Below, piece after piece: positions 3,315-21,440 of a DNA stretch of 33,061 bases. Origin of the DNA: Candidatus Thalassospirochaeta sargassi. GTDB taxonomy: Bacteria; Spirochaetota; Spirochaetia; UBA9216. The stretch's first letter is position 1, and the number at the start of each line of letters is the position of its first letter. The stretch is from positions 1-33,061 of the forward strand of contig JAQQAL010000019.1 of the NCBI GenBank assembly GCA_028532855.1, written 5' to 3'. Below the pieces are notes generated by a model. That model had not been told where the DNA came from and made no database searches. It worked only from the letters and a program-made list of their open reading frames with translations. The position numbers were made by a program, and so were the translations under genes.

Positions 3315-3980
3315 CTAAAAATCCAGGTCGTAGATCCCTTTTCCGTCAATAAGAAATGTTTCAATACTTGAGTCTGTCATAGGGTGTTTAATAAGCTGCA
3401 TCAGCAGTTCGGGGCTGATCGTCGCCGAATGGCATCCATCCATACTGATGCGGTAAATTTGATCGACGGTTTTAAAGCTGGCGGCAAGTACCTTCGTATT
3501 CAGATTAAATTCACTCATGTTTATTACAATATCATTGACTACATCTATTCCGCGCGAAGCAATATTGTCGAGGCGGCTGACGTAGGGTGCAACATAATCT
3601 GCTCCTGCCTTTGCTGCCAGGAGTGCCTGCTGCTGCGTGAAAATTGCAGTTGCTGTGACGTTGATTCCGGCATCCTTGAGTATCCTCATTGCTTTTAGGC
3701 CCTCGAAGGTAACAGGAATTTTTGTGTAGTAGTTGTCGCCTAGTTCAAAGTAGTTCTTGTATTTTCGGGCTTCCTTAACAATTTCATCAGCATCTTCGCT
3801 TATGACCTGTATATGGATAGAACCCCTGTCTACAATATCGGCAATTTTACCTACAGCCTCTGTCAATTTGAGCCCTGATCTTTTTAGGATAGTCGGGTTT
3901 GTTGTGACTCCGCAAAGTGGGAGGTATTCAAAAAGAGTTTTCAGTTTTTCTATATCTGCTGTGTCCGCTAAATAATCCAT
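3315..3980 (-). CDS. fsa: Transaldolase-family enzyme, fructose-6-phosphate aldolase type
   Basis: The 221-residue class I aldolase matches the short transaldolase-like family (MipB/TalC/FSA, about 220 aa). The Schiff-base lysine is K87 in YYTKIPVT. Other family landmarks are VTTNPTI (N28), TATAIFTQQQA, and S168 in LAASFKT. At two positions known to separate FSA from true transaldolases it carries Q58 (IQVIS) and Y133 (APYVSRLD), both FSA-like; short transaldolases usually have Glu and Phe. It may therefore split fructose-6-phosphate into dihydroxyacetone and glyceraldehyde-3-phosphate rather than exchange dihydroxyacetone groups. It appears monocistronic. No Shine-Dalgarno sequence is evident before the ATG. 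Automatic pipelines would probably call it transaldolase. Confidence 0.85.
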   Translation of the reverse strand: MDYLADTADIEKLKTLFEYLPLCGVTTNPTILKRSGLKLTEAVGKIADIVDRGSIHIQVISEDADEIVKEARKYKNYFELGDNYYTKIPVTFEGLKAMRILKDAGINVTATAIFTQQQALLAAKAGADYVAPYVSRLDNIASRGIDVVNDIVINMSEFNLNTKVLAASFKTVDQIYRISMDGCHSATISPELLMQLIKHPMTDSSIETFLIDGKGIYDLDF

Positions 3981-4102: not shown

Positions 4103-4933
4103 ATGGAAATACTGGATATATATGATGAGCAAAGAAAAAAGACAGACAAACAGATAGTGCGTGGAACATCTCTTCTTCAGGGTGAATACTTTCTTGTTAT
4201 TCATGTATGCATACTGAGCCCGGATAATCTGATGCTGATTCAACAGCGTACGGATTTTAAACCGGGCTGGCCGGGGAAATGGGACTTCAGTGTAGGCGGA
4301 ATTGCATCGGCCGGAGAGAACAGTTATGAGGCAGCAAGACGTGAAACCCTTGAAGAACTTGGACTTTCAACTGAGCTGATTATGCAGCGCCCCCAGTTTA
4401 CTATAAACTTCAGCAGGGGCTTCGATGATTACTTCATCATAAAGGACGATATTGATATAACGGAATTGAGGCTTCAGGAAGAAGAGGTTCAGGATGTCAA
4501 ATGGGCGTCGAAGGCTGAGATAGAAGCAATGATAGAGCAGGGTGATTTTATTCCATATAGAAAAGGCCTGCTTGATTTGATATTTGATATGCAGGACGGG
4601 CGGGGGGCTCAGTATATCAAGCCGCCGGAAAAGATTACATTTTTTGAACGGCTTATACCGTTTATTGAATCCGGTAAAAAGACAATAACTATCCGTGATG
4701 AATCAGAGAGCCATTATGTACCGGGTAGCAGGGTAGCAGTACACGTTCTGGAGAGCGACCTGCTTGTATGTTATATAGACATTGTGTCCATTGAGCAAAT
4801 AAGCTTTGATGATATAAATGAGAGTCACGCTGAGCAGGAGCACATGGATTTGCCTGAGCTTAAGAAGCTTATCCGGGAGATTTATCCTGAGAAAGATAAA
4901 TTCTATGTTATAAAATATACATTATGCAAATAA
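4103..4933 (+). CDS. Nudix hydrolase fused to a YqfB-like N4-acetylcytidine amidohydrolase (ASCH) domain
   Basis: Residues 1-165 are a Nudix hydrolase of the IPP-isomerase-like type (DIYDEQ..., GEYFLVIHV, WPGKWDFSVGG). The Nudix box spans residues 66-88: G66, E72, R80-E81, E84-E85, G87, with Thr82 where an aliphatic residue is usual. Residues 176-276 match E. coli YqfB closely, including KKTITIRDESESHY, SHAEQEHM, ELKKLI and YPEKDKFYVIKY. YqfB hydrolyses N4-acetylcytidine to cytidine and acetate; its catalytic Lys21, Thr24 and Glu74 correspond to K193, T196 and E246 here. YqfB is normally a free protein of about 103 residues, so this is a fusion. A two-step cleaning or salvage of acetylated cytidine nucleotides is a plausible inference. 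The stop overlaps the next GNAT gene by 10 bp. Confidence 0.88.
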   Translation: MEILDIYDEQRKKTDKQIVRGTSLLQGEYFLVIHVCILSPDNLMLIQQRTDFKPGWPGKWDFSVGGIASAGENSYEAARRETLEELGLSTELIMQRPQFTINFSRGFDDYFIIKDDIDITELRLQEEEVQDVKWASKAEIEAMIEQGDFIPYRKGLLDLIFDMQDGRGAQYIKPPEKITFFERLIPFIESGKKTITIRDESESHYVPGSRVAVHVLESDLLVCYIDIVSIEQISFDDINESHAEQEHMDLPELKKLIREIYPEKDKFYVIKYTLCK

Positions 4934-11846: not shown

Positions 11847-11968
11847 TCTACGAATTATAACCAAAATGTTTTCCGAAGAAAAACATTCCGCTTAAGACAT
11901 TTTTTCAGTTACCGAAGATTAAAGTGAGACCCTGTAACAGATATGTGCGGGGGCTTTTGGGAGGAAAA

Positions 11969-12814
11969 ATGCTTAGAGGTTTATACACCGGCGCCAGCGG
12001 AATGCAGGCTCAGATACATAAAATGGACGCACTGTCCAACAATCTCGCAAACGTTGATACTACAGGATATAAAAAGGATACCTCAGTACAGAAGGCATTT
12101 CCCCAAATGCTCATTCGCAGAATGAATGATGAAGTTTATAAATATCCCTTTGGTTCAGTTGATACAACTCCCGTTGTAGGAAAACTCGGAAGCGGTGTGG
12201 AACTGAATGAGATTTATACTCAGTTTGACCAGGGTTCGTTGAAAGAAAGCGGAAATCCGTTTGATATTGCTCTTGACGGGAAGGGTTTTTTTACAGTCGA
12301 TACGCCCACAGGTGAGCGCTACACCAGAAACGGGACATTTATGATAGATAATAACGGTCTACTTGTTACAAAGGAAGGATTGCCTGTTCAGGGTGAGAAC
12401 GGAAACATTTATCTTAAGCTGAATAATTTTGTTCTTGATAAGCAGGGGCAGATTTGGCAGAACGCCGATCTTGCAGATGACCCCGAGCGTCTTGTTTCAA
12501 TGAAAGAGAATGACTGGGAGAATCTTGAGCTTGTTGATACGCTCAAGATTGTTGATTTTACCAGAGACAGGTATCTCAAGAAACAGGGCAGCTCTATGTG
12601 GATGGAAACCGATGAATCAGGTGCTCCCAAGAGTGTCGCTCTTGGATCTAACACTAAGACAATTCAGGGATTTTTAGAGAAAGCCAATGTTAACCCGGTG
12701 ACTGAAATGGTTGCAATGATTTCAGTAAACCGTGCATATGAAGCTAATCAGAAAGTCATTACAACTCAGGATGAATTGACCGATACATTAATTAACAGAG
12801 CCGTTAGGGTATAG
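11969..12814 (+). CDS. flgF: Flagellar basal-body rod protein, FlgF type
   Basis: This is a rod/hook-family protein that polymerises in the proximal rod of the periplasmic flagellum. The ATG at 11969, preceded by GGGAGGAAAA, gives 281 residues; an in-frame ATG at 11924 lacks a ribosome site and adds non-homologous residues. The N-terminal rod motif is MLRGLYTGASGMQAQ...LSNNLANVDTTGYKK. The central part has FDIALDGKGFFTVDTP and YTRNGTF. The C-terminal motif NPVTEMVAMISVNRAYEANQK is shared by FlgF and FlgG. It is read as FlgF because a second, more FlgG-like gene follows 12 bp later. Both lack signal peptides, as expected for export by the flagellar secretion system. Confidence 0.9.
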   Translation: MLRGLYTGASGMQAQIHKMDALSNNLANVDTTGYKKDTSVQKAFPQMLIRRMNDEVYKYPFGSVDTTPVVGKLGSGVELNEIYTQFDQGSLKESGNPFDIALDGKGFFTVDTPTGERYTRNGTFMIDNNGLLVTKEGLPVQGENGNIYLKLNNFVLDKQGQIWQNADLADDPERLVSMKENDWENLELVDTLKIVDFTRDRYLKKQGSSMWMETDESGAPKSVALGSNTKTIQGFLEKANVNPVTEMVAMISVNRAYEANQKVITTQDELTDTLINRAVRV

Positions 12815-12826
12815 GGGTAGAAAATT

Positions 12827-13621
12827 ATGATGAGATCATTATATACGGCAGCTTCCGGAATGACCGGGCAGCAGTACAACATCGATACAATTTCAAATAA
12901 TCTTTCAAACGTTAATACAACTGGATTTAAACAGAACCGTGTTGATTTCGAAGATCTCCTGTACCAGACAACAAGAACGGCAGGAACTCCCGCAACTGAG
13001 CTGACGGTCACTCCGGTTGGTGTTCAGGTAGGTCACGGTGTAAAGGTTGCAGCAACACAGAAAATGTATACCCAGGGAGCTCTCCAGAATACCGGAAATA
13101 TATCCGATCTTGCCATTGAGGGTGAGGGTTTTATGAGGGTTATGCTGATTGACGGCACCTACGGTTACACTCGTGACGGTTCGCTTAAAATTGATTCAAA
13201 CGGTCAGCTTGTAACATCTCAGGGATACAGATTGATGCCGGATGTAGTTTTACCCGAGGGATTTGTTCGTGAATCACTTACCATATCACAGGACGGAAGA
13301 ATCACTGTAAAGATTGCCGGTAATGATGACCCTATACAGGTCGGACAGATGCAGCTTTTCAGATTTGTTAATCCGGCAGGGCTTAATGCAATAGGTGAGA
13401 ATCTTTTAAAAGTAACAAATGCATCAGGCGATCCGATAGGCGGCAGGCCTGGATTCGACGGAATGGGGTCGATACAGCATAAATTTCTTGAAATGTCGAA
13501 TGTTTCGGTAGTACAGGAAATGGTAAATATGATTGTTGCACAGAGGGCTTATGAGCTTAACTCAAAGGCTATTCAGACCTCAGATTCAATGCTTCAGATA
13601 GCAAACAACCTAAAGAGGTAA
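12827..13621 (+). CDS. flgG: Flagellar distal rod protein FlgG
   Basis: The 264-residue protein is a standard FlgG length. The N-terminal motif is MMRSLYTAASGMTGQQ with ISNNLSNVNTTGFKQNR. It has the DFEDLLYQTTRTAG region typical of FlgG, LAIEGEGFMRV, YTRDGSLKIDSNG, and the C-terminal helix SVVQEMVNMIVAQRAYELNSKAI. It forms the distal rod that crosses the peptidoglycan and, in spirochetes, connects the motor to a hook lying in the periplasm. It is co-transcribed with flgF and the rod-binding protein (gaps of 12 and 5 bp). Confidence 0.95.
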   Translation: MMRSLYTAASGMTGQQYNIDTISNNLSNVNTTGFKQNRVDFEDLLYQTTRTAGTPATELTVTPVGVQVGHGVKVAATQKMYTQGALQNTGNISDLAIEGEGFMRVMLIDGTYGYTRDGSLKIDSNGQLVTSQGYRLMPDVVLPEGFVRESLTISQDGRITVKIAGNDDPIQVGQMQLFRFVNPAGLNAIGENLLKVTNASGDPIGGRPGFDGMGSIQHKFLEMSNVSVVQEMVNMIVAQRAYELNSKAIQTSDSMLQIANNLKR

Positions 13622-13626
13622 GATAG

Positions 13627-13947
13627 ATGGCAGTAACCGATGCAGCGAGTCTGCAATATAATAATTCAATGCTAAATTCTACTCTCAGCAATGCGAAGAG
13701 CGGCAGGATGTCAGAGCTTGACCAGACAAAGCTCAAGGAAGCATGTCAGGATTTTGAAGCTCTGTTTATAAAACAGATGCTTGATACAATGCGCCAGACT
13801 GTCAGTAAATCCGGTATGCTGGATGGCGGTATGGCAGAGGATGTATTTGAAGATATGCTTTATGACGAATATGCACAGTCAATGGCAAAAACAGGAAATT
13901 TCGGTATCGCAAAGATGATGTATTCTGAAATGTCAGGGCTTCTTTAA
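13627..13947 (+). CDS. flgJ: Rod-binding protein (FlgJ N-terminal-domain homologue)
   Basis: The 106-residue protein matches only the rod-capping N-terminal domain of FlgJ: LKEACQDFEALFIKQMLDTM, then GGMAEDVFEDMLYDEYAQSMAKTGNFGIAKMM. The C-terminal muramidase domain of enterobacterial FlgJ is absent, as is usual in spirochetes, so peptidoglycan cutting must be done elsewhere. It probably chaperones or caps rod assembly. It is last in the flgF-flgG unit. No intrinsic terminator follows, only a very AT-rich 249-bp spacer before the sigma-factor gene. Confidence 0.88.
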   Translation: MAVTDAASLQYNNSMLNSTLSNAKSGRMSELDQTKLKEACQDFEALFIKQMLDTMRQTVSKSGMLDGGMAEDVFEDMLYDEYAQSMAKTGNFGIAKMMYSEMSGLL

Positions 13948-14094
13948 AAAAATAAGAATAAATTTAAAAAATTTATAATTTACACTGAAAAAAAATTTGA
14001 AAGTGTTATTATTTAAGAATAACAGTACTATTTTATTATTCCACTATGTATAAAAAAGTGTACAATCCTCGACGTTTTAAATCTGATTTTTTTT

Positions 14095-14112
14095 GTAATA
14101 ATCTATTATTAC
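14095..14112. promoter_or_regulatory. 18-bp palindrome upstream of the sigma-54 promoter (possible enhancer site)
   Basis: GTAATAAT-CT-ATTATTAC has perfect 8-bp arms and lies about 80 bp upstream of the predicted start of the sigma-factor transcript. That is a usual distance for a sigma-54 activator site. The surrounding 13948-14158 spacer is very AT-rich, so chance symmetry is possible. Confidence 0.35.
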
Positions 14113-14158
14113 TTATCATATAACAATTTACCCTATTTATAATTGTTTTTGTTGTCTT

Positions 14159-14174
14159 TGGCACATATTTTGCA
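14159..14174 (+). promoter_or_regulatory. Sigma-54 (RpoN) -24/-12 promoter of the sigma-factor gene
   Basis: TGGCACATATTTTGCA matches the sigma-54 consensus TGGCACG-N4-TTGCA with one change. The invariant GG (14160-14161) and GC (14172-14173) are separated by exactly 10 bases. Predicted transcription starts at about 14184-14187. That leaves a very short leader that still includes the GAGG ribosome site (14185-14188) for the ATG at 14197. Confidence 0.72.
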
Positions 14175-14196
14175 TGCATATTATGAGGTGATGCAG

Positions 14197-15036
14197 ATGA
14201 CAAAGAGAACTGAGGTGCAGGATAGTGCCATTAAATCGTATTTCAGACAGATACAGAAGTATCCCCTGCTGGACTTTGAACAGGAAATTGAGCTTTCTAA
14301 AAGAATACAGTCGGGTGATGATACAGCACAGAAAACACTGGTAGAATCTAATCTTCGGCTGGTTGTTAAAATAGCAAAACCATATGTAAGCAAAGATATG
14401 AGCTTCCTTGATGTAATTCAGGAAGGTAATCTAGGCCTTATGAAGGCAGCGGAAAAATATGATTTCAAAAAGAACGTAAGATTTTCGACTTATGCCGCAT
14501 GGTGGATCCGGCAGGCTATTGTAAGAGCAATATCCAATAAAAGGAGACCGATACGGCTCCCCCATAGAAAAGAAGAAATTATAAGAAAGATAAAGCAGGC
14601 ATATTATTCTCTCAGCCAGATTTATAGTCGCGAGCCGACTACAGAGGAGATTGCTGAAGAACTGAAGATTGATGTTAATGAGCTTACAACAATTATTCAG
14701 ATGAGCGGTGATATTGTATCTCTTGACGCTGAAATAAATGAAGATTCAGGCACGCTTATAACAATGTTTGAAGATAAGTCTTTTGAACCGGCAGCAGCCG
14801 TGTTCAATAAATTCATGCGTGCAGACACCCTGAAATCAATGGATATTCTTGGTGAGAAAGAAAGACAGGTTCTCCTCTACCGATATTCTTTCTATGACGG
14901 GAAAAAATACACTTTGAAGAAGATAGGAGATAAATTCGGCATTTCTCCGGAAACAGTCAGGCAGATTGAGATGAGAGCACTGAAAAAACTAAGTAAAGAA
15001 TCTGAAAAACTGCGTGAGTATGTTTACACCGGTTAA
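14197..15036 (+). CDS. Alternative sigma-70-family sigma factor (group 2, RpoS/RpoD-like)
   Basis: The 279-residue factor has regions 1.2 to 4.2 and no region 1.1. Region 1.2 is at about 10-40. Region 2 is at about 48-117, with the core-binding and -10 motifs MSFLDVIQEGNLGLMKAAEKY and RFSTYAAWWIRQAIVRAI. Region 3 is at about 125-200. Region 4 is at about 205-270, with a helix-turn-helix TLKKIGDKFGISPETVRQIEMRAL. The ATG at 14197 has GAGG eight bases upstream; ATGs at 14191 and 14143 are too close to the ribosome site or overlap the sigma-54 promoter. The size and layout resemble Borrelia RpoS. The gene may be a sigma-54-controlled regulator of stress or motility functions. The next gene begins 43 bp later. 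Confidence 0.88.
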   Translation: MTKRTEVQDSAIKSYFRQIQKYPLLDFEQEIELSKRIQSGDDTAQKTLVESNLRLVVKIAKPYVSKDMSFLDVIQEGNLGLMKAAEKYDFKKNVRFSTYAAWWIRQAIVRAISNKRRPIRLPHRKEEIIRKIKQAYYSLSQIYSREPTTEEIAEELKIDVNELTTIIQMSGDIVSLDAEINEDSGTLITMFEDKSFEPAAAVFNKFMRADTLKSMDILGEKERQVLLYRYSFYDGKKYTLKKIGDKFGISPETVRQIEMRALKKLSKESEKLREYVYTG

Positions 15037-15079
15037 AATCAGATTGACGAAAAAGTGTTTTAGTACTACCTTCTAAACA

Positions 15080-16066
15080 GTGAGTGATAAAAAGAAAACA
15101 AAAAGGGGTTTAAGTCTTAAGGGGCTTAAACCCTATTATATTATTATAGGAATAATTATTGTCCTGCTTATTATTATTCTCTCAATGATTAAGAATGTAA
15201 GGCCTGAACCGGCAGAAGAGGTTTATGAAACCTATATTGATCTGGGGCCTGCAGAAACTGCAGTTCCGGAGCATGAAACCTCTACTATCGAAGAAACAGT
15301 GCCGGTAGAATCAGTACCGTCTATTGAGAGAAATCCTGCTTCAATACCTGAAATACCTGAAGTTGAGGACGGTTATACAATGGCTTTTATAATCGATGAT
15401 GTAGGAAACAGTATAGAACAGCTGAAACCCTTCCTTGAGATACCTTACCCGGTAACATTTGCGATAATGCCTGATAGAAAATATACCAGGGAATGTGCTA
15501 CAATGATAAAGGCAGCCGGCAAAGAAATTATACTTCATCAGCCGATGGAATCAGTTGGTGGGGCGGATCCCGGAAAATCGGCAATATATACCGATATGAG
15601 CGAGGCGGAAATTAGAAAAACGCTGGAGCACAACTTTAAGCAGCTTCCCCAGGCTTCCGGGATGAATAATCATATGGGTTCGGCTGCAACTTCGGACGAA
15701 CGGGTTATGAATATAGTAATGGATTATCTGTCGGAGAATGATCTTTTCTTCCTCGACAGTTTTACAATATCAACTAGTCTCGGCAAAGAGGCTGCTAAGA
15801 AGTCTGAAGTCGACTTTATAAAAAGGAATAGTATGTTTTTAGACAATGAAAATGATCATGCATCAATACAGAATGCTATTAACGAAGGAAAAAAAGCAGC
15901 TAAAAAGAACGGACATGCCGTCATGATAGGCCATGTCATGACTGGAGAACTCGCCGAGATAATGCTTGATCTCTATCCAAATTTTATTGAAGACGGCTGT
16001 AGTCTCAAGGAAATTTCCGAACTTTTTATTGAAATGAATTCTTTGGCTGGAGTTGAAGAAGAATAA
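15080..16066 (+). CDS. Divergent polysaccharide deacetylase family protein (YibQ-like)
   Basis: The 328-residue protein has a short basic cytoplasmic N-terminus, one transmembrane helix (about 20-42) and an acidic Pro/Glu-rich linker to about residue 95. A divergent polysaccharide-deacetylase domain follows: MAFIIDDVGNS, PVTFAIMPDRKYT, KEIILHQPME, MNNHMGSAATSD, FFLDSFTIS and AVMIGHVM. The family is related to NodB-type deacetylases; its substrate is not established. It is probably anchored in the inner membrane with the domain in the periplasm. The start is GTG (15080) with no clear ribosome site. It ends one base before the tsaD ATG, so the two are coupled. Confidence 0.85.
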   Translation: MSDKKKTKRGLSLKGLKPYYIIIGIIIVLLIIILSMIKNVRPEPAEEVYETYIDLGPAETAVPEHETSTIEETVPVESVPSIERNPASIPEIPEVEDGYTMAFIIDDVGNSIEQLKPFLEIPYPVTFAIMPDRKYTRECATMIKAAGKEIILHQPMESVGGADPGKSAIYTDMSEAEIRKTLEHNFKQLPQASGMNNHMGSAATSDERVMNIVMDYLSENDLFFLDSFTISTSLGKEAAKKSEVDFIKRNSMFLDNENDHASIQNAINEGKKAAKKNGHAVMIGHVMTGELAEIMLDLYPNFIEDGCSLKEISELFIEMNSLAGVEEE

Positions 16067-16067
16067 C

Positions 16068-17081
16068 ATGCTTGTCCTGGGAATTGAAAGTTCTTGCGAT
16101 GAATGTTCTGCTGCTGTTGTAGAAGACGGTAGAAAGATTCTTAGCAATAACATTGCTACACAGATTGAAATTCATAAGGAATATGACGGTGTTGTACCGG
16201 AAATAGCCTCACGAACCCATACAGAATGGGTAAAAGGCGTAGTAGAGAGTGCATTGACAGAGGCCGGCACCGATCTTGCTAAAATTGACGGTATTTCAGT
16301 TACAAACCGTCCTGGCTTAATAGGTTCGCTTATGGTAGGTCTTTCGTATGCAAAGGGGCTTTCTCTTGCATCGGGGATCCCCTTCATTGGAATTGATCAC
16401 ATCCTTGCCCATCTGTATTCGGCAAGACTCGAGCATGATATAGAATATCCTTTTATAGGTCTTATTGTCTCCGGCGGACATACGATAATATCGGTTGTAC
16501 GTGATTTCGATCATATTGAAGTAATGGGAACAACCATCGATGACGCCTGCGGTGAAGCCTATGACAAGGTTGCAAAGCATTACGGTTTCGGATATCCGGG
16601 AGGCCTGATCATCGATCAGATGGCTCAGAAAGGTGACGACAGGGCTTTTAGTTTTCCAGACCCGTCTCTGCATAAGGGTGAACATCGATATGACGTATCT
16701 TATTCCGGTTTAAAGACTGCGGTAATAAATCAGATTGATCAGTTTCATAATGAAGGTTACGAAAAATCAGAACATAATATTGCCGCGTCATTTCAAAAGG
16801 CTGCTATTACTATGCTGATGAAACGTCTATTCAAGGCTTCGTCGGATACAGGAATTTCCCGGGTAGTCGCCGGCGGGGGCGTTGCTGCAAACTCCTACCT
16901 GCGTTCTATGCTTAGAGATAAGAATAATCTTGAGGTTTACTTTCCTTCAATGGAGCTTTGCACCGATAACGCTGCTATGGTAGCAGGACTGGGATATCAT
17001 TATCTGAAACGTGGAGACCGTTCAGGTTTTGACCTCAGCGCCGGTTCAAGGGTTGAGGGTTTTAGAAAGAAATATCCTTAA
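16068..17081 (+). CDS. tsaD: tRNA N6-threonylcarbamoyladenosine transferase TsaD
   Basis: This is the catalytic subunit that transfers threonylcarbamoyl to A37 of ANN-decoding tRNAs, working with TsaB, TsaE and TsaC. The 337-residue protein begins with the family hallmark MLVLGIESSCDECSAAVV. It has GVVPEIASRTH, the metal ligands H111 and H115 in HILAHLYSA, LIVSGGHT, DDACGEAYDK, GGGVAANSYLR and the metal Asp in CTDNAAM. ATG 16068 gives the canonical N-terminus; a TTG at 16053 would add five residues and overlap the deacetylase. The ribosome site lies in GAAGAAG at the end of the upstream gene. A hairpin 25 bp downstream serves the opposite strand. Confidence 0.96.
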   Translation: MLVLGIESSCDECSAAVVEDGRKILSNNIATQIEIHKEYDGVVPEIASRTHTEWVKGVVESALTEAGTDLAKIDGISVTNRPGLIGSLMVGLSYAKGLSLASGIPFIGIDHILAHLYSARLEHDIEYPFIGLIVSGGHTIISVVRDFDHIEVMGTTIDDACGEAYDKVAKHYGFGYPGGLIIDQMAQKGDDRAFSFPDPSLHKGEHRYDVSYSGLKTAVINQIDQFHNEGYEKSEHNIAASFQKAAITMLMKRLFKASSDTGISRVVAGGGVAANSYLRSMLRDKNNLEVYFPSMELCTDNAAMVAGLGYHYLKRGDRSGFDLSAGSRVEGFRKKYP

Positions 17082-17096
17082 AACAGCCCGCAGTAT

Positions 17097-17122
17097 AAAA
17101 AAAGAGCATCTTAAAAAGATGC
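17097..17122 (-). terminator. Rho-independent terminator of the acetate-transporter gene
   Basis: Read on the minus strand, GCATCTT (17122-17116) pairs with AAGATGC (17112-17106) across a 3-base loop and is followed by a T-rich run (TCTTTTTTT). It lies about 30 bp past the transporter stop, between the convergent transporter and tsaD genes. Confidence 0.8.
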
Positions 17123-17151
17123 CCACCTTAAAAAGAATTGAAGAATTTTGC

Positions 17152-17718
17152 TTAATGAACCATCCCCAGGGGCAGAACTGTCTTTCCGTAGACCTCGTTA
17201 AGTACAAGTGCAATTGCAGTGTAAAAAGCAGATGCACCGCAGAAGATCCCCTCAAATCCGGTGATTATCTTAAGGGTGTGATTACCCGTCCAGTCGCCGA
17301 TAGCAAGCAGAACGAAAAGAATTGTAAGGCTCATGAAGATTGTCTGGTGCGCTCTGCTTATTTTAAGTGTACCAAAGAACATGCAGAGGGTGAAAAGTCC
17401 CCATATAAGCAGATAAAACCCCATGTCGAATGCTGCCGCCGGGGCGACTGCGTCTGCCGGGAGAAGCATCAGGGCAACGAAAGAAAGCCAGAAGAATCCA
17501 TACATGGTAAATGCAGTAGCACCGAATGTGTTGTTAACCTTCCATTCCTGAATACCTGCGATAACCTGGGCGAGACCACCGACGAAAATTCCCATCCCGA
17601 GAATCATTGATTCCAGCGGATAAAACCCCGCGTTATGCATATTCAACAATATTGTAGTCATACCGAAACCAAGCAGACCTAAGGGGGCCGGATTACCGTA
17701 TCCGTGAGCTTGAGACAT
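17152..17718 (-). CDS. Acetate uptake transporter family protein (SatP/GPR1-FUN34-YaaH)
   Basis: The 188-residue protein has six hydrophobic helices and the family signature NPAPLGL at residues 9-15 before helix 1. It belongs to the AceTr family, whose E. coli member SatP is a succinate-acetate/proton symporter or channel in the inner membrane. In a fermenter it could move acetate in either direction. The ATG at 17718 has the strong site GGAGGAAGAT; codons upstream to 17775 overlap the aldolase terminator and are not part of the gene. The gene follows the aldolase gene on the same strand but is separated from it by a terminator, so it needs its own promoter or read-through. Confidence 0.9.
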   Translation of the reverse strand: MSQAHGYGNPAPLGLLGFGMTTILLNMHNAGFYPLESMILGMGIFVGGLAQVIAGIQEWKVNNTFGATAFTMYGFFWLSFVALMLLPADAVAPAAAFDMGFYLLIWGLFTLCMFFGTLKISRAHQTIFMSLTILFVLLAIGDWTGNHTLKIITGFEGIFCGASAFYTAIALVLNEVYGKTVLPLGMVH

Positions 17719-17756
17719 ATCTTCCTCCGTATCAAAAAGTGAAAATCTTATTGCAC

Positions 17757-17785
17757 ATAAAAAACCGCTGCTCAAAGAACAGCGG
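17757..17785 (-). terminator. Rho-independent terminator of the aldolase gene
   Basis: On the minus strand CCGCTG (17784-17779) pairs with CAGCGG (17769-17764) across a 9-base loop, followed by TTTTT. It lies about 50 bp after the aldolase stop and just upstream of the transporter start. Confidence 0.8.
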
Positions 17786-17832
17786 CAAATATTGATGTGT
17801 TAATGATTTATAACCTTAAAAGGTTATTTTGT

Positions 17833-18825
17833 CTATGCCTGATTAGCAGATCCGAGAACATTGATGTTCTTGGCTTTGTAAATTTCCTTGAGAGATTCAC
17901 GTGCGGGTGAAAGGTACTGACGCGGATCAAAATGAGACGGATTTTCCGCCATATGTTTTCTGATAGCCGCAGTCATCGCGAGACGACCGTCAGAGTCAAT
18001 GTTAATCTTACATACAGCTGATTTGGAAGCTGTTCTGAGCTGTTCCTCAGGGATTCCGACAGCGTCCTTTAGTGCACCGCCGTTTTCATTAATAATCTTT
18101 ACCTGATCCTGCGGAACTGAAGAAGAACCGTGAAGAACAATGGGGAAGCCGGGAAGCTTTTTTTCAATTTCTTCAAGAATGTCGAATCGCAGCGGAGGGG
18201 GTACAAGTATTCCTTCGGCATTTCTTGTGCACTGTTCGGGTGTGAACTTGTTTGCACCATGTGAAGTCCCGATTGAGATAGCGAGCGAGTCTACACCGGT
18301 CTTTGATACGAAGTCGATAACTTCCTCAGGCTGGGTGTAGGTTGATTTCTCAGCTACGACATCGTCTTCTATGCCGGCAAGAACACCTAATTCGCCTTCT
18401 ACTGTTACATCATGCTGGTGAGCGTACTCAACAACTTTTTTGGTCAATGCAACGTTTTCTTCATAAGGATGATGCGAACCGTCGATCATAACAGAGGAAA
18501 AACCGTTGTCGATACATTCTTTACAGATTTCGAAATCAGCACCGTGATCAAGATGCAGAACTATAGGAATTTCATATCCTAGTTCTTTCGCATATTCAAC
18601 AGCGCCCTTAGCCATGTTTCTCAATAGGGTACCGTTTGCATATTTTCTTGCACCGGCGGAAACCTGTAATATTACGGGGGATTTTGTTTCAACACATGCC
18701 TGGATAATCGCCTGCATCTGTTCCATGTTATTGAAGTTGTAAGCGGGGATTGCGTATCCGCCTTCAACAGCCTTTGCAAACATATCTTTAGTATTTACAA
18801 GGCCAAGTTCTTTATATGATGTCAT
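17833..18825 (-). CDS. fba: Class II fructose-1,6-bisphosphate aldolase
   Basis: This zinc-dependent glycolytic and gluconeogenic enzyme cleaves fructose-1,6-bisphosphate to dihydroxyacetone phosphate and glyceraldehyde-3-phosphate. The 330-residue protein carries the class II signature VLHLDHGAD (catalytic D93, zinc H94), TVEGELGVLAG, the second zinc histidine H189 in GTSHG and the third H232 in VLHGSSS. NIDSDGRLAM closes the barrel. It resembles the class IIB (Gram-positive-like) form. The ribosome site is AAGGAGTGCAGAAGT before the ATG. It has a recognisable sigma-70 promoter at 18864-18892 and its own terminator, so it is monocistronic. Confidence 0.95.
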   Translation of the reverse strand: MTSYKELGLVNTKDMFAKAVEGGYAIPAYNFNNMEQMQAIIQACVETKSPVILQVSAGARKYANGTLLRNMAKGAVEYAKELGYEIPIVLHLDHGADFEICKECIDNGFSSVMIDGSHHPYEENVALTKKVVEYAHQHDVTVEGELGVLAGIEDDVVAEKSTYTQPEEVIDFVSKTGVDSLAISIGTSHGANKFTPEQCTRNAEGILVPPPLRFDILEEIEKKLPGFPIVLHGSSSVPQDQVKIINENGGALKDAVGIPEEQLRTASKSAVCKINIDSDGRLAMTAAIRKHMAENPSHFDPRQYLSPARESLKEIYKAKNINVLGSANQA

Positions 18826-18863
18826 ACTTCTGCACTCCTTTAAGTTTGGTTGATATCGCTTTC

Positions 18864-18892
18864 AGGTTAATCACAGATGTTTATGATGTCAA
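18864..18892 (-). promoter_or_regulatory. Sigma-70-type promoter of fba
   Basis: On the minus strand TTGACA (18892-18887) is separated by 17 bases from TAACCT (18869-18864). The -35 is perfect and the -10 keeps the most conserved T, A and final T. It lies about 40 bp upstream of the aldolase start. The remainder of the gap to 18992 shows no clear ribosome site for the divergent gene. Confidence 0.5.
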
Positions 18893-18991
18893 GGTAAACA
18901 AAAGTCAATTGAACGTTATCTAATGATATTGGGAAAGAAAATTGACCAGTCAAGCTTGCATAATTTACGCCATGCGGATAGCATTGAATTA

Positions 18992-19897
18992 ATGAAGTTT
19001 TCAAGCCTGTTTTTATTTATGCTAATCATTTTTCTAATACCTCTCTTTTCGGCCGTGGCTGCCGACATTACACTTATTACCGATCAGTACTGGAATAGTA
19101 TTCTTGAGGCTGAGCTAAATAGTGACCCATTGAGAGAGTTTATCGATGAGATAAGAAACAGCATCGCGTTTTTGTCATCCTCAAAGCTTCGTTTGCCTGA
19201 GGGGGGTGTTGAGAGAGTGATAGTTGACATAGGCCCAACAATGAGCATTGATGCTCTGGAGAATGCTGTCCCTGCTGGTGAGGGGATAATAATTCTGAGC
19301 CCGCTTTATGCGGTTTATGGCTGTGAACTGGCTTCTAATAATCCCGAAAGCTTTTTTATTATCGCAGGAGACAATGAATCGTCTGAATGTTCAGCGGCTA
19401 ATATTGCCTTTTTCCGTTTTGATTATACCGATGCATGCCGTGAAGCGGGGGTTAGGGCTGCAGGAATGAATGTAGTGACCGCTGTAATGCTCTATAAGGG
19501 AAATGAATATTATTCGGCGCGGGGAGAGTCATTTATAGAAGGTTGGGTAAGTATTAGAAATATTGATGAGCTTTTTATAACTGAATTTGCCGATATAAAG
19601 GATGTAGAGTCTGATATGATCGATGAATTCGAGGATTATACTATAAAAGAAAGCGGTCTTGCCGTAGTTTTCGCAGGACCGCACAACGGTACCGTCCTTG
19701 ACAGGTTTGACGGCAGTGAGGTAAAGCTTGCGGGTGAGTATTTAGACAGCTGGACGCGGACCGGCTATAAGACCTGCATGTCGGTGGAGCTCGGACCATC
19801 ATTGATTCTGGGTGAAATCCTAAAATCTATCAGAGCCGATACTTACACAGTCGGCGGCATCATTAAGGCTGAACTTTTTTTCTATGACGAACAATGA
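18992..19897 (+). CDS. Secreted protein of unknown function, periplasmic-binding-protein-like
   Basis: I do not recognise a named family. ATG 18992 yields 301 residues starting with a signal peptide (MKFSSLFLFMLIIFLIPLFSAVAA, cleavage near 24). An in-frame ATG at 18923 would put 23 polar residues before it, so the later start is preferred, though neither has a clear ribosome site. The body alternates hydrophobic strands and helices (VERVIVDIGPTMSID, GIIILSPLYAVYG, SFFIIAGDN, GLAVVFAGPHNGTVLDRF). ARGESFIEGW resembles the fold of basic-membrane-protein/LacI-like sugar- or nucleoside-binding proteins. No lipobox cysteine follows the signal, so it is probably soluble in the periplasm. Its stop is only 14 bp before the flaA promoter. 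Confidence 0.7.
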   Translation: MKFSSLFLFMLIIFLIPLFSAVAADITLITDQYWNSILEAELNSDPLREFIDEIRNSIAFLSSSKLRLPEGGVERVIVDIGPTMSIDALENAVPAGEGIIILSPLYAVYGCELASNNPESFFIIAGDNESSECSAANIAFFRFDYTDACREAGVRAAGMNVVTAVMLYKGNEYYSARGESFIEGWVSIRNIDELFITEFADIKDVESDMIDEFEDYTIKESGLAVVFAGPHNGTVLDRFDGSEVKLAGEYLDSWTRTGYKTCMSVELGPSLILGEILKSIRADTYTVGGIIKAELFFYDEQ

Positions 19898-19911
19898 TTA
19901 TAGAAAAAGAT

Positions 19912-19940
19912 TTGACAAACATATTCGTAAGAAATATAAT
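19912..19940 (+). promoter_or_regulatory. Consensus sigma-70 promoter of the flaA operon
   Basis: TTGACA (19912-19917) is separated from TATAAT (19935-19940) by exactly 17 bases, a perfect match at all 12 consensus positions. It lies 53 bp before the first flaA start. This predicts strong, housekeeping-sigma transcription of the sheath proteins rather than sigma-28 control. Confidence 0.88.
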
Positions 19941-19992
19941 TCAGAATGTCTAGCATTTTGTGACTTTTGTACTACATTAAGGAGTAAAAATA

Positions 19993-20712
19993 ATGAAACG
20001 AGGTAGCATCCTTTTCCTGTGTATTTTACTCGCCATGGCTTTTGTTATTCCATCGACGGTTTTTGCCGACGAATCAACAGAAAATCTGGTTTCCACGGTT
20101 GTCGAAAGCTTCGACCCGGCTGACAGAACCAGCGATTGGCTTGTATTGGGCAGTAAATTTATAACCGAAGGTTACCCGAAGCAGATTTATGCCGAAGCCT
20201 GGCCTGAAGCACTTTGGGGATATAACACTGAGCAGAATGATTATCAGGTCCTGGGTATTAACGCCAGATTCGACCGACAGGGATATAATTATCTTGAGAT
20301 TATCCCTGTTGTAGACGCTGAGGCTGAAGAGTGGGAACATAATCCGATTCCTATGAAGGGCAGAGTAAAACGATTCGACTGCTGGGTATGGGGGTCAGAA
20401 TATGATTACAGTATCGAAATGCATCTGATGGATTATAATGGTATCAACTGGGTTCTTCCGCTGGGAAATCTCAAATATACCGGGTGGAAAAACCTGGCGG
20501 TTGAAATACCGAATTATATTCCTCAGGCAACAAAATACATACCTTATTACAAGCAGATGACATTCGAAAAACTTGTAATCTGGACTGCTCCTCAGGAATC
20601 AGTTCATGAATATTATGTATATATCGACCAGCTCAAGATTCTGACTGATATGTTCGAGTCAAGATTTGACGGTGATACATTGACCTGGCCTGAAAGAGTC
20701 GATGAAATGTGA
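19993..20712 (+). CDS. flaA: Flagellar filament outer-layer (sheath) protein FlaA, first copy
   Basis: FlaA proteins form the sheath around the FlaB core of spirochete periplasmic flagella. The 239-residue protein has a Sec signal peptide (MKRGSILFLCILLAMAFVIP..., cleavage after VFA near residue 25), unlike the FlaB flagellins that use the flagellar exporter. The mature part has the FlaA family pattern: FDPADRTSDWLV, YLEIIPV, the RVKRFDCWVWGSEYDYSIEMHLMDY strand pair, GNLKYTGWKNLAVEIPNYIPQ and YVYIDQLKILTD. The ribosome site is AAGGAG. It has a perfect promoter and is followed 8 bp later by a second flaA. It and the second copy are clearly homologous but diverged. Confidence 0.92.
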   Translation: MKRGSILFLCILLAMAFVIPSTVFADESTENLVSTVVESFDPADRTSDWLVLGSKFITEGYPKQIYAEAWPEALWGYNTEQNDYQVLGINARFDRQGYNYLEIIPVVDAEAEEWEHNPIPMKGRVKRFDCWVWGSEYDYSIEMHLMDYNGINWVLPLGNLKYTGWKNLAVEIPNYIPQATKYIPYYKQMTFEKLVIWTAPQESVHEYYVYIDQLKILTDMFESRFDGDTLTWPERVDEM

Positions 20713-20720
20713 GGTGAAGA

Positions 20721-21440
20721 ATGAGAAATTCTATAAAAAAAACACTAATTATACTAATTATACTTGCCGTATCTGCGACAGGGGTATTTGCTCAGAGCAG
20801 GGTCGGCGAGCCGGATCCTTCCCAGATAGGCGTTGATACTGCTCAGCAGGAACTTCGCGAGATTTCAATATCAAAATTTGAAGATGCGGGGATGTGGAGA
20901 AGTCAGATGCCGCGCGATGCTGGTATTACTTCTGTAAGAAAGATTAAGGGAAGCCCTCTTGATAAAGAGCCTATAGAAGGTGAAGAGGAAGTAGGTATAC
21001 AGGAAGCAGATGATTACGTACTTGGTGTAAGAGCGAACTTCTACAAGAGATCAGTCACCTCTTTTTCAATTCTTCCCTCAAAACCGATGGCCGTTGAAGG
21101 TATCTGCAAGACTGTATCAGTCTGGGTTATCGGAAGAAATACTGATCATATGCTGAAGCTTTTAATTAAAGATCAGTTTGGAAACAGGGCAGAGGTTACC
21201 ATGGGAAAACTCAACTTTGCCGGCTGGAAAAAGATGACAGTAGCTATTCCTACACATATCGTTCAGAAAGACTATCACTATGCTAACAAGATGGGAATTG
21301 AAATTCTCGGTTTCAGGGTTGATTGTGATCCGGCAGAAACCTACGGTGCCTACTACATCTACTTTGATGATCTCAGAGCTACTACAGACCTTTTTACTGA
21401 AAACAACAGAGACGTTGATGATATAGCAGACGTCTGGTAG
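20721..21440 (+). CDS. flaA: Flagellar filament outer-layer (sheath) protein FlaA, second copy
   Basis: The 239-residue paralogue of the upstream gene also has a Sec signal peptide (MRNSIKKTLIILIILAVSATGVFA, cleavage after residue 24). Family landmarks are ISKFEDAGMWRSQMP, SFSILPSKPM, CKTVSVWVIGRNTDHMLKLLIKD, GKLNFAGWKKMTVAIPTHI and YYIYFDDLRATTDLF. Relative to the first copy it carries an acidic insert around residues 80-95. The ribosome site is GTGAGGTGAAG. The two gene products may occupy different parts of the filament or form a mixed sheath. It is followed by the OmpA-domain gene only 5 bp later, with a terminator just inside that gene. Confidence 0.92.
   Translation: MRNSIKKTLIILIILAVSATGVFAQSRVGEPDPSQIGVDTAQQELREISISKFEDAGMWRSQMPRDAGITSVRKIKGSPLDKEPIEGEEEVGIQEADDYVLGVRANFYKRSVTSFSILPSKPMAVEGICKTVSVWVIGRNTDHMLKLLIKDQFGNRAEVTMGKLNFAGWKKMTVAIPTHIVQKDYHYANKMGIEILGFRVDCDPAETYGAYYIYFDDLRATTDLFTENNRDVDDIADVW

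Follow-up and report, generated by a model that had tools for sequence, protein, structure and literature searches.

The window, that is, the whole stretch of DNA analysed (33,061 nucleotides of contig JAQQAL010000019.1), comes from Candidatus Thalassospirochaeta sargassi, whose genome comprises 3.8 Mb in 53 contigs and is rated 100% complete. It contains a gene that joins a Nudix hydrolase module to a YqfB-type N4-acetylcytidine (ac4C) amidohydrolase domain. The features of this locus are the following.

4103–4933, + strand: Nudix-YqfB fusion gene, 276 aa; stop-free frame with the Pfam domains NUDIX and ASCH and a match to the NCBIfam YqfB equivalog
4103–4612, + strand: Nudix module, residues 1–170; alignable over its whole length with stand-alone Nudix proteins about 172 aa long, 43–52% identical
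4298–4366, + strand: Nudix box GIASAGENSYEAARRETLEELGL, residues 66–88; pattern Gx5Ex7REx2EExGU
4589–4624, + strand: linker MQDGRGAQYIKP, residues 163–174; the Nudix tail passing into the YqfB N-terminus, with low model confidence
4602–4607, + strand: GGGGGG, 8 nt ahead of the old start position; possible remnant ribosome-binding site of an ancestral yqfB
4625–4927, + strand: YqfB-type ASCH amidohydrolase domain, residues 175–275; NF003443 match, seven invariant residues
4924–5781, + strand: GNAT acetyltransferase-like protein, 285 aa; acetyltransferase matches in both halves

Upstream of the fusion gene, on the opposite strand, lies a transaldolase/fructose-6-phosphate-aldolase-like gene (3315–3980). 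Further along, positions 11924–21440 of the window carry flagellar basal-body rod genes, a sigma-70 family factor, TsaD and two FlaA (filament-sheath) genes, a spirochaete-type motility neighbourhood. The FlaA proteins, together with the affinity to Treponema proteins, point to a spirochaete.

The fusion frame is single and unbroken from the ATG at 4103 to the TAA at 4931–4933, and the one frame of the opposite strand that was translated over 4103–4933 contains several stops. The Pfam search assigns NUDIX to residues 34–144 (E 2.2e-14) and ASCH to residues 178–274 (E 1.5e-18). The Nudix hydrolase box Gx5Ex7REUxEExGU is complete, the first U being Thr, and is found exactly at the residues given for it in an earlier, sequence-only reading of this 276-aa frame. 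Such domain matches, together with the Nudix box and the predicted catalytic residues, are incompatible with chance. At the level of sequence, the fusion and the integrity of both the domains and their catalytic residues are established, and what is seen is two known enzyme families, with active sites predicted to be intact, in a genuine and apparently rare fusion.

The C-terminal half matches the NCBIfam equivalog NF003443, “N(4)-acetylcytidine aminohydrolase”, over residues 175–275 (E 6e-41, 139 bits versus a cut-off of 93). In a phmmer search of the PDB, residues 175–273 align without gaps to residues 3–101 of E. coli YqfB (1TE7, 7.7e-24; 9KYF, 1e-22). The sequence-only reading had described an ASCH domain similar to E. 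coli YqfB along its length, with counterparts of Lys21, Thr24 and Glu74 at K193, T196 and E246; both the 99-residue alignment with the equivalog score and the residue mapping bear this out. All seven invariant residues of the family are present (E. coli YqfB residue first): Lys21/K193, Thr24/T196, Arg26/R198, Asp27/D199, His70/H242, Glu74/E246 and Tyr89/Y261. These E. coli residues are 100% conserved and have been mutated: K21A, T24A and R26A are inactive, and E74A, H70A and Y89A show lowered activity (PMC6972931). Foldseek with the AlphaFold2 model likewise matches the C-terminal half to E. coli YqfB with and without ac4C (9KYF, 9KYH).

While the C-terminal 100 residues are about 48% identical, without gaps, to E. 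coli YqfB (1TE7, 9KYF–9KYH; NF003443), the E. coli protein and the other homologues compared are stand-alone proteins of about 103–110 aa, and here the domain forms the C-terminal half of a chain of 276 aa. The form typical of the family, a small stand-alone monomer, is not part of the equivalog model, and the protein studied here departs from it by its fusion to Nudix. Hence membership is claimed for the C-terminal domain, in a new architecture: this domain belongs to the YqfB-type N4-acetylcytidine amidohydrolase family, and hydrolysis of ac4C is its predicted activity. Enzymes of this type take a wide range of N4-acylcytosines, the acyl group being aliphatic, aromatic or heterocyclic; no binding of tRNA or ssRNA was seen in vitro, and their authors prefer free acetylated nucleotides to RNA as the substrates (PMC9599836). 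No tests of phosphorylated cytidines as substrates are reported in the YqfB studies consulted, among them PMC6972931 and PMC9599836.

The Nudix fold of the N-terminal half is supported by the AlphaFold2 model and by Foldseek matches to Nudix structures. The stand-alone homologues of this module come from the Bacillota, Treponema and other spirochaetes, the nearest being Treponema and Bacillota proteins. A profile of the subfamily searched against the PDB yields DR_0079 of Deinococcus radiodurans first (1.1e-12), then YfcD (1.3e-12), then isopentenyl-diphosphate isomerases; Foldseek likewise puts DR_0079 on top (8.0e-11), followed by YfcD. DR_0079 (1Q27, 2O5F) is thus the top match by both profile and fold, but the identity over the fold alignment is only about 22–23%, and it has Asn at the last Gly of the Nudix box, where the fusion has the canonical Gly. 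As summarised in PMC5389931, citing Buchko 2008, DR_0079 prefers cytosine (deoxy)ribonucleoside di- and triphosphates. A cytosine-nucleotide preference of the Nudix half is suggested by this relationship.

E. coli YfcD (2FKB) has a comparable score over most of the module (residues ~5–146). Orthology to YfcD was rejected, as the module scores 51 bits against the NCBIfam YfcD equivalog cut-off of 152. We know of no substrate of YfcD. Since it scores equal to DR_0079, the Nudix substrate cannot be read from the sequence. An isopentenyl-diphosphate isomerase was also rejected: the module has SVGG in place of SVCG, the catalytic Cys being Gly, and its box is of the hydrolase type with a complete REx2EE.

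The mean pLDDT of the fusion model is 79. The block means over Nudix residues 1–160 are mostly 81–97, with one block at 73; the ASCH part is at about 50–85, and the values fall below 50 at residues 168–182, in the linker region. Because the linker and the relative placement of the domains are of low confidence, the model lends no support to channelling between them.

Aligned with the ATG start of the same-genus stand-alone yqfB, the junction has an ATC codon (Ile172, 4616–4618, + strand), and the relatives of this genus have GGAG or AGGAG where the fusion has GGGGGG. Hence the stretch 4602–4618, GGGGGG-N8-ATC, resembles the decayed Shine-Dalgarno sequence and start codon (ATG to ATC) of an ancestral yqfB. 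Low-level separate initiation of YqfB may occur here. No in-frame ATG, GTG or TTG that might serve to initiate a separate YqfB lies between 4592 and 4624, the Nudix stop has been lost, and both domains are in the same frame with no indel. An assembly or sequencing artefact merging two genes would agree with the occurrence in a single genome of 53 contigs and with the separate genes in relatives, but no single sequencing error can account for the loss of both the Nudix stop and the yqfB start. We consider an artefact highly improbable, and the fusion looks real. The sequence-only reading had named, as grounds against its proposal, separate genes in other genomes and a sequencing error in this one; the former are indeed observed, whereas the latter is contradicted by the double loss.

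In two genomes of the same genus (G297 and G298) and one of the same family (G301), YqfB is a stand-alone gene of about 104 codons, 63–67% identical to the fused domain. In the YqfB tree the fused domain joins the same-genus stand-alone proteins with modest support (SH-aLRT 80), and the fused copy is the sole YqfB equivalog of the genome. In the other sampled members of the family there is no orthologue of the Nudix subfamily, their matches belonging to a different Nudix group. Based on the grouping of YqfB with its genus and the lack of a Nudix orthologue in the sampled family members, an acquired Nudix gene probably joined the native yqfB.

The same observations agree with a fortuitous fusion, in which a horizontally acquired Nudix gene inserted just ahead of the native yqfB, the intervening stop and start codons disappeared, and each domain acts by itself, its substrates having nothing to do with those of the other. 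We regard this as a serious possibility, somewhat short of an even chance. The affinity of the YqfB half to its own genus and family, the position of the Nudix half among Treponema and Bacillota proteins, the look of a decayed boundary in the same-frame junction, and the single occurrence all speak for it. On the other hand, both catalytic domains have stayed intact despite the 33–37% divergence of the fused YqfB from its nearest relatives.

Among the genomes sampled, the fusion is found in one only. The sequence-only reading had proposed to look for the same domain order in other genomes, and none was found: there is no second copy in 393 genomes of the same phylum, in the whole order (7 genomes), in 398 Bacillota or in 398 proteobacterial genomes. 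Here the Bacillota set is the phylum of Mammaliicoccus and the proteobacterial set that of an “uncultured proteobacterium” contig, the phylum names being taken from the titles of the centre contigs. Further, plasmids, phages and viral contigs gave no match covering both halves, no relative was found in IMG/VR, and our literature search found no work relevantly coupling an ASCH domain with Nudix. YqfB above the NF003443 cut-off is seen in 25 of the 398 proteobacterial genomes, always stand-alone in open frames of 104–153 aa, in none of the 398 Bacillota genomes, and, among the 393 genomes of the same phylum, in none besides the fusion genome. With a single-genome occurrence, there is no sign of selective conservation of the Nudix-YqfB arrangement.

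Two observations made in the same searches concern the halves separately. A YqfB homologue of about 39% identity is encoded by Vibrio phage 1F273_PE003 (L045:1–336), at the end of the 14.6-kb genomes of tail-less Vibrio phages (Vinavirales) and near a ParD-like antitoxin gene; it is possibly phage cargo. In a genome of the same class (L017:52–2019, complement), Nudix is N-terminal to a large protein whose C-terminal part, by eye, is similar to PLP-dependent transsulfuration enzymes.

The downstream GNAT gene starts within the end of the fusion gene, with an overlap of 10 nt (ATGcaaaTAA), which makes it probable that the two are co-transcribed and translationally coupled. The start is supported by the homologue in the same-genus genome G298, since that protein begins at the aligned residue. 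Pfam finds Acetyltransf_1 at residues 38–132 (4.3e-17, two stretches) and a weak Acetyltransf_6 at 196–255. The G298 homologue is 50% identical and stands alone, away from Nudix and YqfB; hence a conserved GNAT operon was rejected. By eye, it is situated near toxin-antitoxin-like genes.

Moreover, four relatives of the Nudix subfamily, 42–50% identical to the module, are fused to GNAT acetyltransferase domains.

L031:4314–5495: GNAT-Nudix fusion, Treponema sp. UBA4873
L005:904–2004: GNAT-Nudix fusion, genome of the same class
L091:1483–2478 and L092:1015–2001: Nudix-GNAT fusions, two Bacillota

These proteins share with the fusion studied here the Nudix subfamily and the presence of a second fused domain, but there the partner is an acetyltransferase and here a deacylase. 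Judging from these architectures and the overlapping GNAT gene, the subfamily seems to have a tendency to pair with acyl-adding or acyl-removing enzymes, and its fusions to GNAT suggest a broader or different role. Given the different GNAT types and the isolated position of the G298 homologue, this pattern is a lead only. A fortuitous fusion leaves unexplained both the repeated joining of this subfamily to acyl-transfer domains and the overlap with the GNAT gene.

Another explanation is a detoxification module, in which Nudix, YqfB and the coupled GNAT would act together on aminated or acylated compounds from outside the cell that resemble nucleotides, cytosine nucleoside antibiotics being one example, and not on ac4C. 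It draws on the overlap with its conserved start, on the GNAT fusions of the close Nudix relatives, on the broad range of N4-acylcytosines taken by YqfB enzymes (PMC9599836) and on the failure to find an ac4C writer in the genome. However, this GNAT is not of the type found in the fusions, the homologue in G298 is located apart from Nudix and YqfB, both Nudix and GNAT domains are very common, and no specific resistance or defence family is matched. We consider this explanation unlikely. A defence system was rejected as well, the only match, to a PADLOC candidate (1.1e-7), being weak and of a general Nudix kind.

As for the writers of ac4C, neither the TmcAL family (PF05636) nor the TmcA/NAT10 acetyltransferase domain (PF13718) was detected in the fusion genome or in six relatives; the same searches were positive in control genomes, B. 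subtilis and E. coli among them. At that, several of the genomes concerned do keep a YqfB-type enzyme. The sequence-only reading had suggested turnover of ac4C-modified RNA as a possible origin of the acetylated cytidines; for RNA of the cell itself this idea loses ground, because no known writer was found and the published YqfB enzymes bound neither tRNA nor ssRNA. The remaining sources are scavenged ac4C, other N4-acylcytosines or a writer of a kind not yet known. Since no known writer is detectable in the genome, a scavenged substrate is more likely than a self-made one.

The protein is most likely bifunctional. The best-supported single mechanism, close to even with a fortuitous fusion, is that the two domains share a substrate. 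We tentatively propose, at somewhat less than even probability, that the fusion is a bifunctional sanitation and salvage enzyme for N4-acylcytosine nucleosides and nucleotides. The YqfB domain would deacylate N4-acylated cytosine nucleosides; judging from the E. coli enzyme, Thr196 would be the nucleophile, Lys193 the base and Glu246 the acid, and Arg198 would be essential. The Nudix domain would cut the phosphate chain of its nucleotide substrates, keeping them out of RNA and passing on the monophosphate; di- or triphosphates of cytosine nucleosides, acylated ones included, are the most likely substrates. The substrate would be scavenged, either as ac4C from the RNA of other organisms or as other N4-acylcytosines. 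We infer both activities, the Nudix substrate and the common substrate pool; two full-length domains joined in frame, with no separate YqfB equivalog, fit a shared pathway.

Pyrophosphate cleavage followed by deacetylation of acetylated cytidine nucleotides had already been put forward in the sequence-only reading. Its domains and residues stood, and the activity is plausible. The idea is somewhat strengthened by DR_0079 being the best solved relative of the Nudix half by profile and fold, but stays at the level of inference, given the equal score of YfcD and, in the YqfB studies consulted, no reported tests of phosphorylated cytidines. A stricter version, in which the protein is dedicated to the sanitation of N4-acylated cytosine nucleotides in two steps, possibly helped by the coupled GNAT, in a lineage with no known writer, we consider doubtful.

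If true, it would connect an ac4C deacylase with the cleaning of the nucleotide pool, a link not known before. To our knowledge, the recycling of ac4C from RNA decay and the exclusion of ac4CTP from RNA are largely unstudied. The keeping of YqfB in a lineage with no known ac4C writers is a separate puzzle. The cellular substrate of YqfB is debated, and its fusion with a relative of a cytosine-nucleotide hydrolase points at nucleotides; being a natural fusion, it provides a single purifiable protein in which this idea may be tested.
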